From Flavobacteriaceae bacterium (GTDB taxonomy: Bacteria > Bacteroidota > Bacteroidia > Flavobacteriales > Flavobacteriaceae): 32,916 nt of DNA. Shown piece after piece: positions 24,829 through 30,565 of this stretch. A model generated the notes under the pieces. The model was not told the DNA's origin, ran no database searches, and was given only the letters and a program-made list of their open reading frames with translations. The stretch's first letter is position 1; the number at the start of each line of letters is the position of its first letter. Location of the stretch: the NCBI GenBank assembly GCA_021647835.1, contig JAKITY010000009.1, positions 1-32,916 of the forward strand. Reading direction: 5' to 3'. The position numbers and the translations under genes were made by a program.

Positions 24829-25578
24829 ATGACTGATAAAAAGAAATTTGGATTGATTGGTAAAAATATTTCGTACTCTTTTTCAAAAGGATATTTTCTC
24901 AATAAATTTAAAGAATTAAAGTTAGATAATTATTCATTTCGTAATTACGACTTGCCAGAAATTTCCGAATTCCCGTTTATAACATACCATAAAGAAGAAG
25001 AATTTGGAGGTTTTAATGTGACGATTCCTTATAAAGAATCAATAATTAAATATCTTTCAAGTCTTGATGATGATGCGCAGAAAATAGGAGCAGTAAACAC
25101 CATTAAAATCACTAATGACAATCAATTAATTGGCTTTAATACAGATGTTTATGGTTTTGAAAACTCACTAAAACCATTGTTAAAATCACACCATAAAAAA
25201 GCCTTAATACTTGGTACAGGAGGCGCTTCAAAAGCCATTGCCTTTGTATTAGATAAATTAAATATCCATTTTCAATTTGTTTCTAGAAATCCAATTTCAG
25301 AGAATAGTATTTCTTATAAAAACATATCTAAAGAAACAATTGAAGAACATCAATTAATAATTAATTGTACGCCTTTGGGAACACACCCAAACATTCAAGA
25401 TTGTCCTGACATTCCGTATGAATTTCTGACTGATAAGCATTTTTTGTATGATTTAAGCTATAATCCTTCAGAAACGGAGTTTTTGAAAAGAGGCAAAAAA
25501 CAAGGCACAACTATCAAAAACGGATTAGAAATGCTTGAACTACAAGCAGAAAAATCTTGGAAAATCTGGAATTCTTAG
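24829..25578 (+). CDS. aroE: Shikimate dehydrogenase
   Basis: FGLIGKNISYSFSKGYF, GGFNVTIPYKESI, IGAVNTIK, GFNTDVYGFENSL, ALILGTGGASKAIAF; C-terminus LELQAEKSWKIWNS. Confidence 0.96.
   Translation: MTDKKKFGLIGKNISYSFSKGYFLNKFKELKLDNYSFRNYDLPEISEFPFITYHKEEEFGGFNVTIPYKESIIKYLSSLDDDAQKIGAVNTIKITNDNQLIGFNTDVYGFENSLKPLLKSHHKKALILGTGGASKAIAFVLDKLNIHFQFVSRNPISENSISYKNISKETIEEHQLIINCTPLGTHPNIQDCPDIPYEFLTDKHFLYDLSYNPSETEFLKRGKKQGTTIKNGLEMLELQAEKSWKIWNS
25552..25577 (+). repeat. 26-bp direct repeat copy 1 (3' end of aroE), left boundary of cassette
   Basis: AAATCTTGGAAAATCTGGAATTCTTA, identical to 30540-30565. Confidence 0.95.
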
Positions 25579-25629: not shown

Positions 25630-25845
25630 TCACTCCAACTCCCTAAAAAACTCTTCTAAAGTCATTTGATGCGCATCTAACACACGCAAAAAAGTACGAA
25701 TGGTAAAGTTTGTGCCTTTTTCCATACGCCAATATTGTACACGTGGTATTTTATGTTCCCAAGCAAAAAACTCATGACTTCCATATCCTTTATCAATACG
25801 CAATTCTTTAATGTGCTTTGCTATTTTAATAATTCTCTCATCCAT
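25630..25845 (-). CDS. Small XRE-like helix-turn-helix protein (71 aa)
   Basis: IAKHIKELRIDKGYGSHEFFAWEHKIPRVQYWRMEKGTNFTIRTFLRVLDAHQMTLEEFF resembles an XRE HTH. Confidence 0.8.
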   Translation of the reverse strand: MDERIIKIAKHIKELRIDKGYGSHEFFAWEHKIPRVQYWRMEKGTNFTIRTFLRVLDAHQMTLEEFFRELE

Positions 25846-25997: not shown

Positions 25998-26048
25998 AGA
26001 CCTCACAGGTTTTACTTGTCCGCCTTTGGAGGAAAACCTGTGAGGTCT
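25998..26048. repeat. Long palindrome of the type dispersed in Bacteroidota genomes
   Basis: AGACCTCACAGGTTTT-(19 nt)-AAAACCTGTGAGGTCT, 16-bp perfect arms, 20 nt before the next start codon. Confidence 0.85.
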
Positions 26049-26068: not shown

Positions 26069-26410
26069 ATGAAAACCCTAAAACAATTAGAGCGCTTACG
26101 GAAAATACACCAATATATAAAAGCCTCAAATGCTGGAACACCAAAAGAGTTTGCAAGTAAACTCAACATAAGTGAAAGCCAATTGTACAACGTATTGGAA
26201 GACCTGAAAATAAAAGGGTTTCCTATTGTGTATTCTCGTACAGAAAAAACCTATCTATATAATAATGAATGCGAATTAGAAATTCATTATTCTGTAGAAC
26301 TACTCACAGCACAAGAAAAAATAAATATTGCAGGTGGAACTATAGAAAATTTCTTTACTCCAATGCAATTAGAGTGGACAGGTTTACATTCGCAGTATCA
26401 AAGCAATTAA
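26069..26410 (+). CDS. HTH (HTH_11/DeoR-like) DNA-binding protein, putative regulator of the cassette
   Basis: KQLERLRKIHQYIKASNAGTPKEFASKLNISESQLYNVLEDLKIKGFPIVYSRTEKTYLY, a winged-HTH pattern. Confidence 0.8.
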   Translation: MKTLKQLERLRKIHQYIKASNAGTPKEFASKLNISESQLYNVLEDLKIKGFPIVYSRTEKTYLYNNECELEIHYSVELLTAQEKINIAGGTIENFFTPMQLEWTGLHSQYQSN

Positions 26411-26455
26411 AATGTGCACATTTTTAAGGTTTTGATAGGCATTGTGAATTTCAAC

Positions 26456-26531
26456 GTCATTGCGAGCAAAGCGAAGCAATCTCATAAATATAAAGAGATT
26501 GCCACGGTTTTAAAAAAAACCTCGCAATGAC
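26456..26531. repeat. REP/MITE-like element with nested inverted repeats
   Basis: Outer GTCATTGCGAG/CTCGCAATGAC (11 bp) and inner GCAATCTC/GAGATTGC (8 bp); 76 nt. Confidence 0.85.
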
Positions 26532-26584
26532 ACAAAAACTTTACAAGCCAAAAAACAAATTATTAAATTAAAATTTTTAACTTT

Positions 26585-26791
26585 ATGAAAAATTTAGAAA
26601 ATTACGGTGTTCAAGAAATGAATGCTATGGAAATTAGAAATACTGAAGGAGGATGGGTGTCAGAAGTTTTAAGGGGCCTTGCATATATAGCCGCTATCGC
26701 TGCAGCTGCTAATGATTTATGTGGTCAATGTATCACTGAAGCAATTGCTTCAAGTGATTCTAGTCTTGGAGGATCAAGACAATTTGAATGA
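26585..26791 (+). CDS. Double-glycine-leader bacteriocin/peptide precursor (68 aa)
   Basis: Leader MKNLENYGVQEMNAMEIRNTEGG, with hydrophobic residues at -12 and -7, E at -8, GG at -2/-1. Core WVSEVLRGLAYIAAIAAAANDLCGQCITEAIASSDSSLGGSRQFE. Same strand as an HlyD and C39-ABC exporter. Confidence 0.85.
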   Translation: MKNLENYGVQEMNAMEIRNTEGGWVSEVLRGLAYIAAIAAAANDLCGQCITEAIASSDSSLGGSRQFE

Positions 26792-26804
26792 TAATACTTA
26801 GCAT

Positions 26805-26842
26805 TACATCAAAATAAATTGATTGTAATTTATTTTGATGTA
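26805..26842 (+). terminator. Hairpin directly after the precursor gene (terminator/attenuator)
   Basis: TACATCAAAATAAATT-gattgt-AATTTATTTTGATGTA, 16-bp perfect arms. Confidence 0.75.
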
Positions 26843-26859
26843 TATTTAAACACTATGTT

Positions 26860-27015
26860 ATGAAAATAAGAATTACCCTTTATATATTAATTATAATTAT
26901 AAGTTTATCATATCTATTGAATATCGATTTTCCTTTAAGAAAATATTTTTTAATTTTATTTATTATTATTTCTTTATTCTTAGATTTTGCTCTCACTTAT
27001 TTTAAAAAAAAATAA
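26860..27015 (+). CDS. Small two-TM hydrophobic protein (51 aa), candidate immunity protein
   Basis: Below ORF-track size cutoff. Manual translation MKIRITLYILIIIISLSYLLNIDFPLRKYFLILFIIISLFLDFALTYFKKK*. Sits between the precursor and the exporter genes. Confidence 0.65.
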   Translation: MKIRITLYILIIIISLSYLLNIDFPLRKYFLILFIIISLFLDFALTYFKKK

Positions 27016-27182: not shown

Positions 27183-28346
27183 ATGAAAAATATCTTTCCA
27201 AAAGAGATTATAGAAAATACTATTGAAGTACACCGTTTTAAACACTCCGTAAAGAGTAAAATCATTTACAGTATTTTACTCTTGAGTATTTTGAGTATTG
27301 GTGCTTCATTACCTTATGTGTCTTTAGATATTTACTCTTCATCTCAAGGTATTTTAAAATCAGAAAAAGAAAGAAATCAAATCACATCGCTGTATTCTGG
27401 TAGAATAGAAGCAATTACTATCAAAGAGAATGACTATGTAAAGAAAGGAGATACATTACTTGTTATTAATAATTCTGTTGGTAAAGAAAAACAAGACTTG
27501 CTTTTAAATCAGTTAGAAGAAACACGTTTATTTGTACATGATTTAAATTACTTGTCACGTAATAATTGGATTCGACAAGATTCGCTACAATCATTTTTAT
27601 ATCAAAAAGAGTATTTGCAATACTTACAAAAACTACGAGAATTACAAACACACTATACTAAAAATAAGCGAGATTTTATCCGTCAAGAAAAACTCTATAA
27701 CAAAGATGTAATCGCAAGGGTAGAATATGAAGAAAGTAAATATAGTTATGATTTGGCAGTTGGTAATCTCAGCCATTTTAAGAAACAACAGCGCAATCAA
27801 TGGCAATCTTCATTAATTCAACAGCGTAACAAAGCCGATGAATTAGAAAGTAGTTTGGCGCAAATGCAAGAAGAGCAAAATAATTATATTATTACAGCAT
27901 CTATTACAGGTACAATACAGAGTTTAAAAGGTTTGGAAGTTGGAAATTTTATTGCTTCAGGCAGTCCTATTGCTGAAATTTCTCCTGATACCGATTTAAT
28001 TGTAGAGTTTTATATAAAACCTTCAGATATTGGATTACTTAAAGAAAATAGTGCTGTTAAATTTCAAATAGATGCTTTTAACTACAATCAATGGGGAATG
28101 GCGACAGGAAAAATAGTGAGTATCAATAAAGATATTTCTATAATCAATAATGTGCCGCTATTTAGAGTGATTTGCTCTCTTGACCAAAAAGAATTACAAC
28201 TAAAAAATGGTTTCAAAGGAAAATTTAAAAAAGGAATGACTTTAAACGCTCGTTTTTTTGTGGTCAATCGTACTGCATTTGAATTGCTATATGACAAGGT
28301 TGATGATTGGTTTAATCCGAGTAAATCAGTTGGCAGTATTCAGTAA
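27183..28346 (+). CDS. HlyD family secretion/membrane-fusion protein
   Basis: N-terminal TM, lipoyl/barrel-sandwich pattern (SGRIEAITIKENDYVKKGDTLLVIN; ITASITGTIQSLKGLEVGNFIASGSPIAEISP), coiled-coil middle. Confidence 0.95.
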   Translation: MKNIFPKEIIENTIEVHRFKHSVKSKIIYSILLLSILSIGASLPYVSLDIYSSSQGILKSEKERNQITSLYSGRIEAITIKENDYVKKGDTLLVINNSVGKEKQDLLLNQLEETRLFVHDLNYLSRNNWIRQDSLQSFLYQKEYLQYLQKLRELQTHYTKNKRDFIRQEKLYNKDVIARVEYEESKYSYDLAVGNLSHFKKQQRNQWQSSLIQQRNKADELESSLAQMQEEQNNYIITASITGTIQSLKGLEVGNFIASGSPIAEISPDTDLIVEFYIKPSDIGLLKENSAVKFQIDAFNYNQWGMATGKIVSINKDISIINNVPLFRVICSLDQKELQLKNGFKGKFKKGMTLNARFFVVNRTAFELLYDKVDDWFNPSKSVGSIQ

Positions 28347-28378: not shown

Positions 28379-30541
28379 ATGGCAAAAACAACCCTAAAAC
28401 AACACGACATTACAGACTGTGGAGCAACCTGTTTAGCATCTATAAGTGCACATTATAAATTAGAACTTCCGATTGCACGAATTCGACAATATGCAGGAAC
28501 AGACAAAAAAGGCACCAATGTTTTAGGCTTGATTGAGGCAGCACAAAAATTGGGTTTTGAAGCCAAAGGTGTCCGTGGAGATTTAGAAAGTTTGTTTAAA
28601 ATACCAAAACCTGCCATTGCACATGTTATTGTAAAAGAGCGTTTACAGCATTATGTAGTTATCTATAAAGTTGATAAGAAGTACATTACAATTATGGATC
28701 CAGGAACAGGAAAAATCCATAAAAAGACACACGTAGCGTTTAAAGAAGAATGGACAGGCGTGTTGGTTTTATTACTTCCAGATGAATCCTTTGAAAAAGG
28801 GAATGAAAAAGTATCTATTCTAAAACGTTTTTGGTTTTTACTAAAACCTCACAAGTTTGTATTGATTCAAGCATTGGTTGGTGCTATTATTTATACACTT
28901 CTTGGCTTGTCAACATCTATTTATATTCAGAAAATAACAGACCATGTATTGGTTGGCGGAAACACAAAACTACTCAACTTATTGAGTATTATTATGCTTG
29001 GTTTATTATTCATACAAGTGTTGATTGGTGTTTTTAAAGATATATTTCTCATCAAAACAGGACAACAGATTGATGCTCGACTTATTTTGGGCTACTACAA
29101 GCATTTACTAAAATTGCCACAACAATTTTTTGATACAATGCGTGTTGGAGAAATTATTTCAAGGATTAATGATGCTGTAAAAATCAGAGTATTTATCAAT
29201 AGTACATCATTATCATTGACCGTAAATTTCTTTATCGTCATTTTTTCTTTTGCTCTGATGTTTAGTTATTATTGGAAATTGGCACTAATAATGTTAGCAA
29301 TTATTCCAGTCTATATCCTTATTTATTGGATTACAAATAGATTGAACAAAAAAACAGAACGTAAAATAATGGAACGCTCTGCCGATTTAGAAAGTCAATT
29401 GGTAGAATCTTTGAATGCTGTTGGTACAATCAAGCGTTTTGGCTTGGAAGATTTTGCGAATATTAAAACGGAAACACGTTTTATTAGTTTGTTACATATT
29501 GGTTATACATCTGCAATGAATAGTATTTTTAGCGGAACGTCTTCTCAAACAGTATCTCGTTTTTTTACAATTATATTATTGTGGAGCGGAACTTATTTTG
29601 TGATAGATCAAGAGATTAGTCCAGGAGAATTGATGTCTTTTTATGCGATTATAGGATATTTTACAGGCCCAATTTCAAGTTTGATTGGTGCAAACAAGAG
29701 TATTCAAAACGCTCTAATTGCTGCTGATAGGTTATTTGAAATAATGGATTTAGAACGTGAGGAAACTGAAAATAAGTTTAAATTAACGGCTGATAAAATT
29801 GATGATATTTCGTTTAAAAATGTAAAATTCCGTTATGGAACGAGAGTTGAAGTGTTTAATGATTTTAATTTGACAATAAAAAAAGGAGAAATCACAGCAA
29901 TTGTTGGTGAAAGTGGTTCTGGAAAATCAACTTTAATTTCTTTATTACAAAATATGTATCCATTGCAAAGCGGAAATATCAGTATTGGAGATATTGATTT
30001 AAAATACATCGAAAACAAAAGTTTGCGAGAGTTGGTAAGTGTTGTACCTCAAAAAATAGATTTATTTGCAGGAAATGTGATTGATAATATTGCTGTTGGA
30101 GATTTTTATCCAAATATGGAATTGATTTTATCAATTTGTAAAAGCATTGGTATTTTAGAGTTTATAGAAACACTCCCAAATAGTTTTAACACTTATTTAG
30201 GCGAGAACGGAGCAACACTTTCTGGCGGACAAAAACAGCGTATTGCTATTGCAAGAGCACTTTATAAGCAGCCTGAAATTTTAGTTTTAGATGAGGCAAC
30301 ATCTTCATTAGATAGTACTTCTGAAAATTACATTCAAAAAACAATACAGAATTTAAGAGCAAAAAGCAAAACTATTGTAATTATTGCACATCGTTTAAGC
30401 ACTGTTATAAATGCAGATACAATTGTAGTTTTAGATAAAGGAAAAGTTCTAGAACAAGGAAATCACAAAGTGCTTTTTAATAAAAAAGGACATTATTATA
30501 ATTTATGGAAACAACAAATGCCAGTTTTTGATGAGCAATAA
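28379..30541 (+). CDS. Peptidase C39 domain-containing ABC transporter (PCAT bacteriocin exporter)
   Basis: C39 peptidase (KQHDITDCGATCLASISAHY...RLQHYVVIYKV...IMDPGTG), TM domain, Walker A GESGSGKST, signature LSGGQKQR, Walker B ILVLDEATSSLD. Confidence 0.97.
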   Translation: MAKTTLKQHDITDCGATCLASISAHYKLELPIARIRQYAGTDKKGTNVLGLIEAAQKLGFEAKGVRGDLESLFKIPKPAIAHVIVKERLQHYVVIYKVDKKYITIMDPGTGKIHKKTHVAFKEEWTGVLVLLLPDESFEKGNEKVSILKRFWFLLKPHKFVLIQALVGAIIYTLLGLSTSIYIQKITDHVLVGGNTKLLNLLSIIMLGLLFIQVLIGVFKDIFLIKTGQQIDARLILGYYKHLLKLPQQFFDTMRVGEIISRINDAVKIRVFINSTSLSLTVNFFIVIFSFALMFSYYWKLALIMLAIIPVYILIYWITNRLNKKTERKIMERSADLESQLVESLNAVGTIKRFGLEDFANIKTETRFISLLHIGYTSAMNSIFSGTSSQTVSRFFTIILLWSGTYFVIDQEISPGELMSFYAIIGYFTGPISSLIGANKSIQNALIAADRLFEIMDLEREETENKFKLTADKIDDISFKNVKFRYGTRVEVFNDFNLTIKKGEITAIVGESGSGKSTLISLLQNMYPLQSGNISIGDIDLKYIENKSLRELVSVVPQKIDLFAGNVIDNIAVGDFYPNMELILSICKSIGILEFIETLPNSFNTYLGENGATLSGGQKQRIAIARALYKQPEILVLDEATSSLDSTSENYIQKTIQNLRAKSKTIVIIAHRLSTVINADTIVVLDKGKVLEQGNHKVLFNKKGHYYNLWKQQMPVFDEQ

Positions 30542-30565
30542 ATCTTGGAAAATCTGGAATTCTTA
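30540..30565 (+). repeat. 26-bp direct repeat copy 2 (aroE 3'-end remnant), right boundary of cassette
   Basis: Identical to 25552-25577. Reads AAA TCT TGG AAA ATC TGG AAT TCT TAA = KSWKIWNS* through 30566; overlaps the PCAT stop codon. Confidence 0.95.

Follow-up and report, generated by a model that had tools for sequence, protein, structure and literature searches.

The peptide encoded at positions 26585..26791 of the analysed DNA is interpreted here, with a probability of roughly 0.7, as a class II microcin-like bacteriocin of Flavobacteriaceae, whose immunity protein would be the 51-aa membrane protein encoded just downstream. A bacteriocin with its immunity protein was the best explanation because the pairing of peptide and partner is conserved despite differing gene order, and because a C39 transporter and an HlyD adaptor are encoded in the same cassette. 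The core of the putative bacteriocin is probably unmodified. The window (the whole 32,916-nt stretch of DNA that was analysed) belongs to an incomplete MAG of the Flavobacteriaceae (69% complete, assembly of 2.03 Mb), in which the precursor gene is single copy. A literature search returned no characterised peptide of this type for Flavobacteriaceae. The analysis defines a putative toxin–immunity pair that is testable in this family, and shows that the emphasis on the CxxC motif of the peptide, however tempting, was misplaced.

The precursor and its relatives

The ORF (+ strand, ATG start) encodes a precursor of 68 aa, MKNLENYGVQEMNAMEIRNTEGG (leader) followed by WVSEVLRGLAYIAAIAAAANDLCGQCITEAIASSDSSLGGSRQFE (core). 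The double-glycine leader takes up residues 1–23 (26585-26653), leaving a core of 45 aa, residues 24–68 (26654-26788). The hallmarks of the leader profile were all present in the precursor, with E16 at -8, the hydrophobic I17 at -7 and GG (residues 22-23) at -2/-1. An Ala-rich stretch, the sequence C46-G-Q-C49 (26720..26731, + strand), a second GG at residues 62-63 and a missing YGNGV box were found just as the first-pass annotation had described them, and its view that this is a GG-leader core peptide of a type other than pediocin-like was supported. AlphaFold, run on the single precursor sequence, predicted one long helix, with pLDDT of ~95 at residues 31-50 and >90 in the mid-core. None of the Pfam bacteriocin models reached its cut-off on the precursor, and no relatives of the peptide were found in the plasmid and viral collections. 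A PDB sequence search with the peptide gave chance matches only, and neither Rfam families nor tRNAs were found when the window was scanned.

When the precursor was searched by tblastn, its leader family was detected in 22 of 400 Flavobacteriaceae genomes at E<=0.01, the best match outside the window's own genome being 9.4e-8. Most matches ended near the GG. The gathered precursors have MKNLENYGVQELNAKEI.ET.GG in common and are almost wholly different beyond it; the cores are hypervariable, with several different ones per cassette. Besides HlyD, the family's cassettes encode the small HTH protein also seen in the window and a PCAT (peptidase-containing ABC transporter) that is 60–82% identical to that of the window. 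In the Sinomicrobium cassettes (L006, L037, L049, L100, L102, L108 and L109), GG precursors are arrayed in numbers of up to seven, and the same leader precedes another core type consisting of Gly/Val-rich repeats (LLGGLDGVL.LVTGVVGTVVG...LLGGLLGGL).

Against TIGR03949, the model for lactobin A/cerein 7B, the window precursor scored 17.2 bits (E 0.0033; residues 10-47), below the curated cut-off of 21.5, and 16 of 36 family precursors matched this model at E<=0.01. These matches, together with the presence of at least two precursors in many sister cassettes, could be taken to mean that the peptide acts as part of a pair, in a class IIb bacteriocin of the lactobin A/cerein 7B type whose second peptide is encoded elsewhere or has been lost. 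This is unlikely, however, as the window cassette has one precursor only, the window genome has nothing that corresponds to the additional precursors co-encoded in the cassette of the closest homolog (L084, below), and the GxxxG motif is absent from the core.

The closest homolog came from a leader-pattern scan of named genomes. It is encoded at L084:3969-4172 (L084 being JADGEA010000251.1 of the Flavobacteriaceae MAG BB24), with 54% identity over the full length, including both leader and core, and its core is WWVPVIRGLAYLALIAVAYHDATCDGSDHFEGMDNSLGGSRPFE. This is the one close homolog of the core (n=1); the weaker relatives L035, L115 and L085 were aligned by eye and by their common partner gene. 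Similarity to the helical part of the window core is seen in the cores of L035 (DWVTVLRVIAYALTIAANF...) and L115 (FWPLLRRIILAVAAAHEASGCEG...); that of L085, which ends in NSLYGAQPFY, bears a weak likeness to the window core. L035 has a GTG start and a leader ending in EG instead of GG, and the start codon of L115 is uncertain. A core-only search of the family (400 genomes) and a search at the order level with a two-row core profile (388 genomes) found nothing convincing beyond the window, and a core-pattern scan of genome contigs found no matches.

Between the window and L084, dN/dS was ~0.46 for the leader and ~0.66 for the core, both rough values from a single pair. On the evidence of these comparisons the ORF is not a chance ORF, since its leader matches an independent flavobacterial family, it has a full-length homolog, and genes for a C39 transporter and HlyD share its cassette. 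The alternative of a decaying pseudogene or spurious ORF could draw on the incompleteness of the MAG, on a ~90-bp repeat element in the 5' leader region that is absent there in L084, and on decayed HTH copies beside the homolog in L084. Nevertheless, the leader, core, partner, transporter and adaptor are all intact, and with full-length homology and dN/dS <1 this alternative is highly improbable, being largely refuted by the homolog.

The hydrophobic helix pointed out at first pass recurs in the homologs: the pattern V[LI]R.[LI]AY...IA was found in the window, L084 and L035, and the N-terminal helix defined by it is kept in L084 and in two or three weaker relatives. The C-terminal LGGSRQFE (26765..26788, + strand) corresponds to SLGGSRxFE in L084 and to a loose SLYGAQPFY in L085. 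As the tail is conserved in L084, SLGGSRxFE is probably functional, as part of the active peptide, and it does not resemble a processing site. The second GG within it had been suggested as an alternative cleavage site, which was not supported: the leader profile matches the first GG alone, and a cut at the second would release SRQFE only.

Nor was a conserved CxxC supported as a disulfide, metal site or modification handle, the roles suggested for the cysteine pair at first pass. Of 103 leader-family cores, that of the window was the only one with a CxxC; Cys is absent from 75 of the cores, single in 20 and present twice in 8. One Cys occurs in each of L084 and L115 and none in L035 or L085, and neither a thiol oxidoreductase nor a modification enzyme is encoded in the cassette or insert. 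The spacing by itself is unremarkable, since two random Cys in 45 residues would be three apart ~4% of the time. When the core was compared with its homologs, the helix was kept and the LGG tail was found in the closest of them, and it was the CxxC that was not conserved.

A bacteriocin whose Cys pair forms an essential disulfide or modification, and which in this respect resembles bacteroidetocins or other Bacteroidota peptides with Cys, would agree with the presence of CxxC in the window. Bacteroidetocins share the phylum, the GG leader and the PCAT, have at least two Cys and appear to be disulfide-bonded (PMC6671954). With CxxC in a single core, at least two Cys in just 8/103, one or no Cys in the homologs, a cassette without the corresponding enzymes and a leader of 23 aa instead of 15-16, this explanation is quite improbable. 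A disulfide is possible in the window copy; judging from the Cys content of the relatives, it cannot be their common mechanism. The CxxC would be a peculiarity of the window copy, not needed for the mechanism held in common.

Partner protein and export genes

The cassette is a five-gene set on the + strand, encoding the HTH protein, the precursor, the 51-aa membrane protein, an HlyD-type adaptor and the PCAT. The 51-aa protein (26860..27015), the candidate immunity protein, was predicted to form two helices and has two hydrophobic maxima. In L084, the gene after the precursor homolog encodes a homolog of this protein (37% identity over 51 aa), for which dN/dS was ~0.31, again a rough value from a single pair. 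With a profile of these two sequences, additional copies were detected in L085 and L115 and, with a weak match, in L035; in all three the gene lies downstream of a GG-type precursor. The same partner of 51-53 aa was found after the peptide in the window and four relatives (256 bp downstream of the precursor in L085), even with differing gene order, which is HTH-peptide-2TM-HlyD-PCAT in the window and HlyD-PCAT-HTH-peptides-2TM in L084.

Homologs of the partner with no recognisable precursor nearby were also observed in genomes of the family (L189:1483-1656, L190:1462-1629 and L191:1489-1665). Immunity genes often occur as orphans. In sister cassettes, PF02517 (CPBP/Rce1-like) proteins adjoin the precursors, and this group includes some known bacteriocin immunity proteins (PlnI, PlnP).

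The interval between the precursor and partner genes (26792..26859, + strand) is predicted to form an RNA hairpin with a 17-bp stem (-16.3 kcal/mol, z -4.7). A hairpin of other sequence occupies the same position in L084 (-20.2, z -4.2). Such a hairpin is as expected if the peptide is made in excess of its partner.

Downstream of the partner follow the HlyD-type membrane fusion (adaptor) protein of 387 aa (27183..28346, + strand) and the PCAT of 720 aa (28379..30541, + strand), which matched TIGR01193 above the cut-off. The PCAT contains Peptidase_C39, ABC membrane and ATPase domains. Read from the sequence, its C39 triad is intact, with DCG (C14), HYV (H91) and MDPG (D107) in the usual places. 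OEP/TolC-like proteins are present in the window genome.

From these features we infer a path of cleavage, export, killing and immunity. The C39 domain of the neighbouring transporter would recognise the MKNLENYG..EI...EGG leader and cut after GG23, and the 45-residue core would exit via the PCAT, the HlyD adaptor and a chromosomal TolC-like channel, the last of these being suggested by the family. The conserved W/V..V[LI]R.[LI]AY...IA segment may form a helix with its site of action on or within the membrane of related target cells, and the SLGGSRxFE tail may serve a function such as receptor or immunity recognition. The two-helix membrane protein would protect the producer as the cognate immunity protein.

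Regulator, palindromes and insertion site

The small HTH protein of 113 aa (26069..26410, + strand) is conserved in these cassettes, and its family was found in 50 of 400 family genomes. Its C-terminal part contains a leader-like segment, SVELLTAQEKINIAGG. The tails of 70 members of the HTH family, which are related proteins and not independent cases, were scored with the leader profile ignoring the GG itself; the best leader-like stretch was then followed by GG in 35/70 and by AG in 12/70. The scores of the tails were above those of shuffled tails, but well below those of true leaders.

An inverted repeat, TATCAAAGC..GTGCAC..GGTTTTGATA (26397..26437, + strand), overlaps the HTH stop codon and is a candidate operator. 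Palindromes of this kind, centred on GTGCAC (CAAAAC..GTGCAC..GTTTTG), were located between the HTH gene and the precursor in the window, in L084 (2938-2976 and 3898-3936), L035, L098 and L100. Two further repeats were observed in this part of the window. A REP-like palindromic element of ~90 bp (CATTGCGAG..CTCGCAATG type) lies just upstream of the precursor at 26445-26540; it is the sole exact copy in the assembly and is missing from the corresponding position in L084. The other, a long hairpin (GACCTCACAGGTTTT..AAAACCTGTGAGGTC) at 25998-26048, is an interspersed repeat with ~11 occurrences across the assembly.

The net charge of the core is -3, and most bacteriocins are cationic. The charge, the regulator in the same cassette and the conserved palindrome between regulator and precursors would suit a peptide that is not a toxin but is secreted as a biofilm factor or as a signal akin to a quorum-sensing pheromone, controlling the HTH regulator or the cassette. 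GG peptides have such roles elsewhere, as in the Synechococcus biofilm proteins (PMC4997328) and the pneumococcal PCAT peptides (PMC7018657). A role of this kind is nonetheless improbable here, though less so than an essential Cys pair: the cassette has no gene for a histidine kinase or peptide receptor, the cores are hypervariable with several different ones per cassette, and a small membrane protein (also found as an orphan) accompanies the peptide, with CPBP proteins beside the precursors of sister cassettes. The bacteriocin with its immunity protein is the preferred reading.

The genes aroE and that encoding a DUF349 protein are adjacent in 11 congeners, and ~5.0 kb lie between them in the window. 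By this comparison, the cassette is an insertion between the two genes. It is bracketed by an exact direct repeat of 26 bp, of which the left copy (25552..25577, + strand) forms the last codons of aroE and the right copy (30540..30565, + strand) is continued by the sequence found after aroE in the congeners. Direct repeats, ranging from 22 to ~380 bp, bracketed ~9 of ~38 complete cassettes, which besides the window were L041, L042, L043, L050, L090, L093, L104 and L114. In seven repeat-bracketed cassettes, the repeat overlaps the 3' end of the adjacent host gene, and these are different genes. The window insert contains no gene for a recombinase. Integration of a circle by a single crossover would fit, as would the action of a recombinase in trans.

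At the left end of the insert, a small XRE/HTH-like ORF of 71 aa (25630..25845, - strand) had no Pfam match. A close copy was found at the same place in L093 (3546-3761, - strand), abutting the host stop codon. Small opposite-strand XRE-like genes at the insert end beside the intact host gene were also seen in L050 (7384-7770, - strand) and L104 (3521-3715, - strand).

Tentatively, and with considerable doubt, the cassette could be a new kind of mobile unit for bacteriocins that enters behind host genes, leaves a 3'-end copy of variable length and has no recombinase of its own. In the same proposal, the leader mimic of the HTH protein would possibly be bound or cut by C39, coupling transcription of the peptide to export. 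Taken together, the hypervariable cores, the leader-like regulator tail and the 3'-end duplications of target genes may point to a common route for the exchange of antagonistic peptides and the control of their export, of which no description was found in the literature. The surroundings of the peptide, namely the insertion and the regulator tail, are more surprising and novel than the peptide itself.

Comparison with known peptide systems

The peptide resembles the pediocin-like class IIa bacteriocins in its GG leader and C39 transporter; it differs from them in having an Ala-rich single helix, and the pediocin-like assignment was rejected as the YGNGV box is missing. With lactobin A/cerein 7B (class IIb, TIGR03949) it shares a GG leader followed by an Ala/Gly-rich hydrophobic helix, the weak match covering residues 10-47. 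In contrast to that type, it has a single precursor and Gram-negative export with HlyD, and its score with TIGR03949 stayed below the cut-off (17.2 against 21.5 bits).

Bacteroidetocins (class IIf) have leaders of 15-16 aa and two or more Cys, and come with a thiol oxidoreductase but without an immunity protein (PMC6671954). The window peptide is like them in its origin from Bacteroidota, its GG leader, its C39 PCAT and the length of the mature peptide, which is ~42-48 aa in bacteroidetocins (PMC6671954). It is unlike them in its leader of 23 aa, in a CxxC that is not conserved in the family, in lacking a thiol oxidoreductase and a 5-TM protein, and in a cassette that includes HlyD and a candidate immunity protein. 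A bacteroidetocin assignment was rejected on the length of the leader and on the absence of thiol oxidoreductase and multi-TM genes from the insert.

Class II microcins consist of a GG pre-peptide and a small adjacent immunity protein, with a PCAT, MFP and TolC; their leaders are 15-18 aa, their cores 60-90 aa and their immunity proteins 51-216 aa in length (PMC10233263). The window system agrees with those of the microcin V type in its Gram-negative producer, the GG leader, the C39 PCAT with MFP and the chromosomal TolC-like channel, and its adjacent small membrane protein falls within the size range of the immunity proteins. It departs from them in that the core has no sequence similarity and measures 45 aa against 60-90, the leader is 23 aa against 15-18, and the cassette belongs to Flavobacteriaceae instead of Enterobacterales and is without siderophore-attachment genes. 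As the lengths of leader and core are outside the range reported for class II microcins (PMC10233263), the peptide is named microcin-like and not a microcin.
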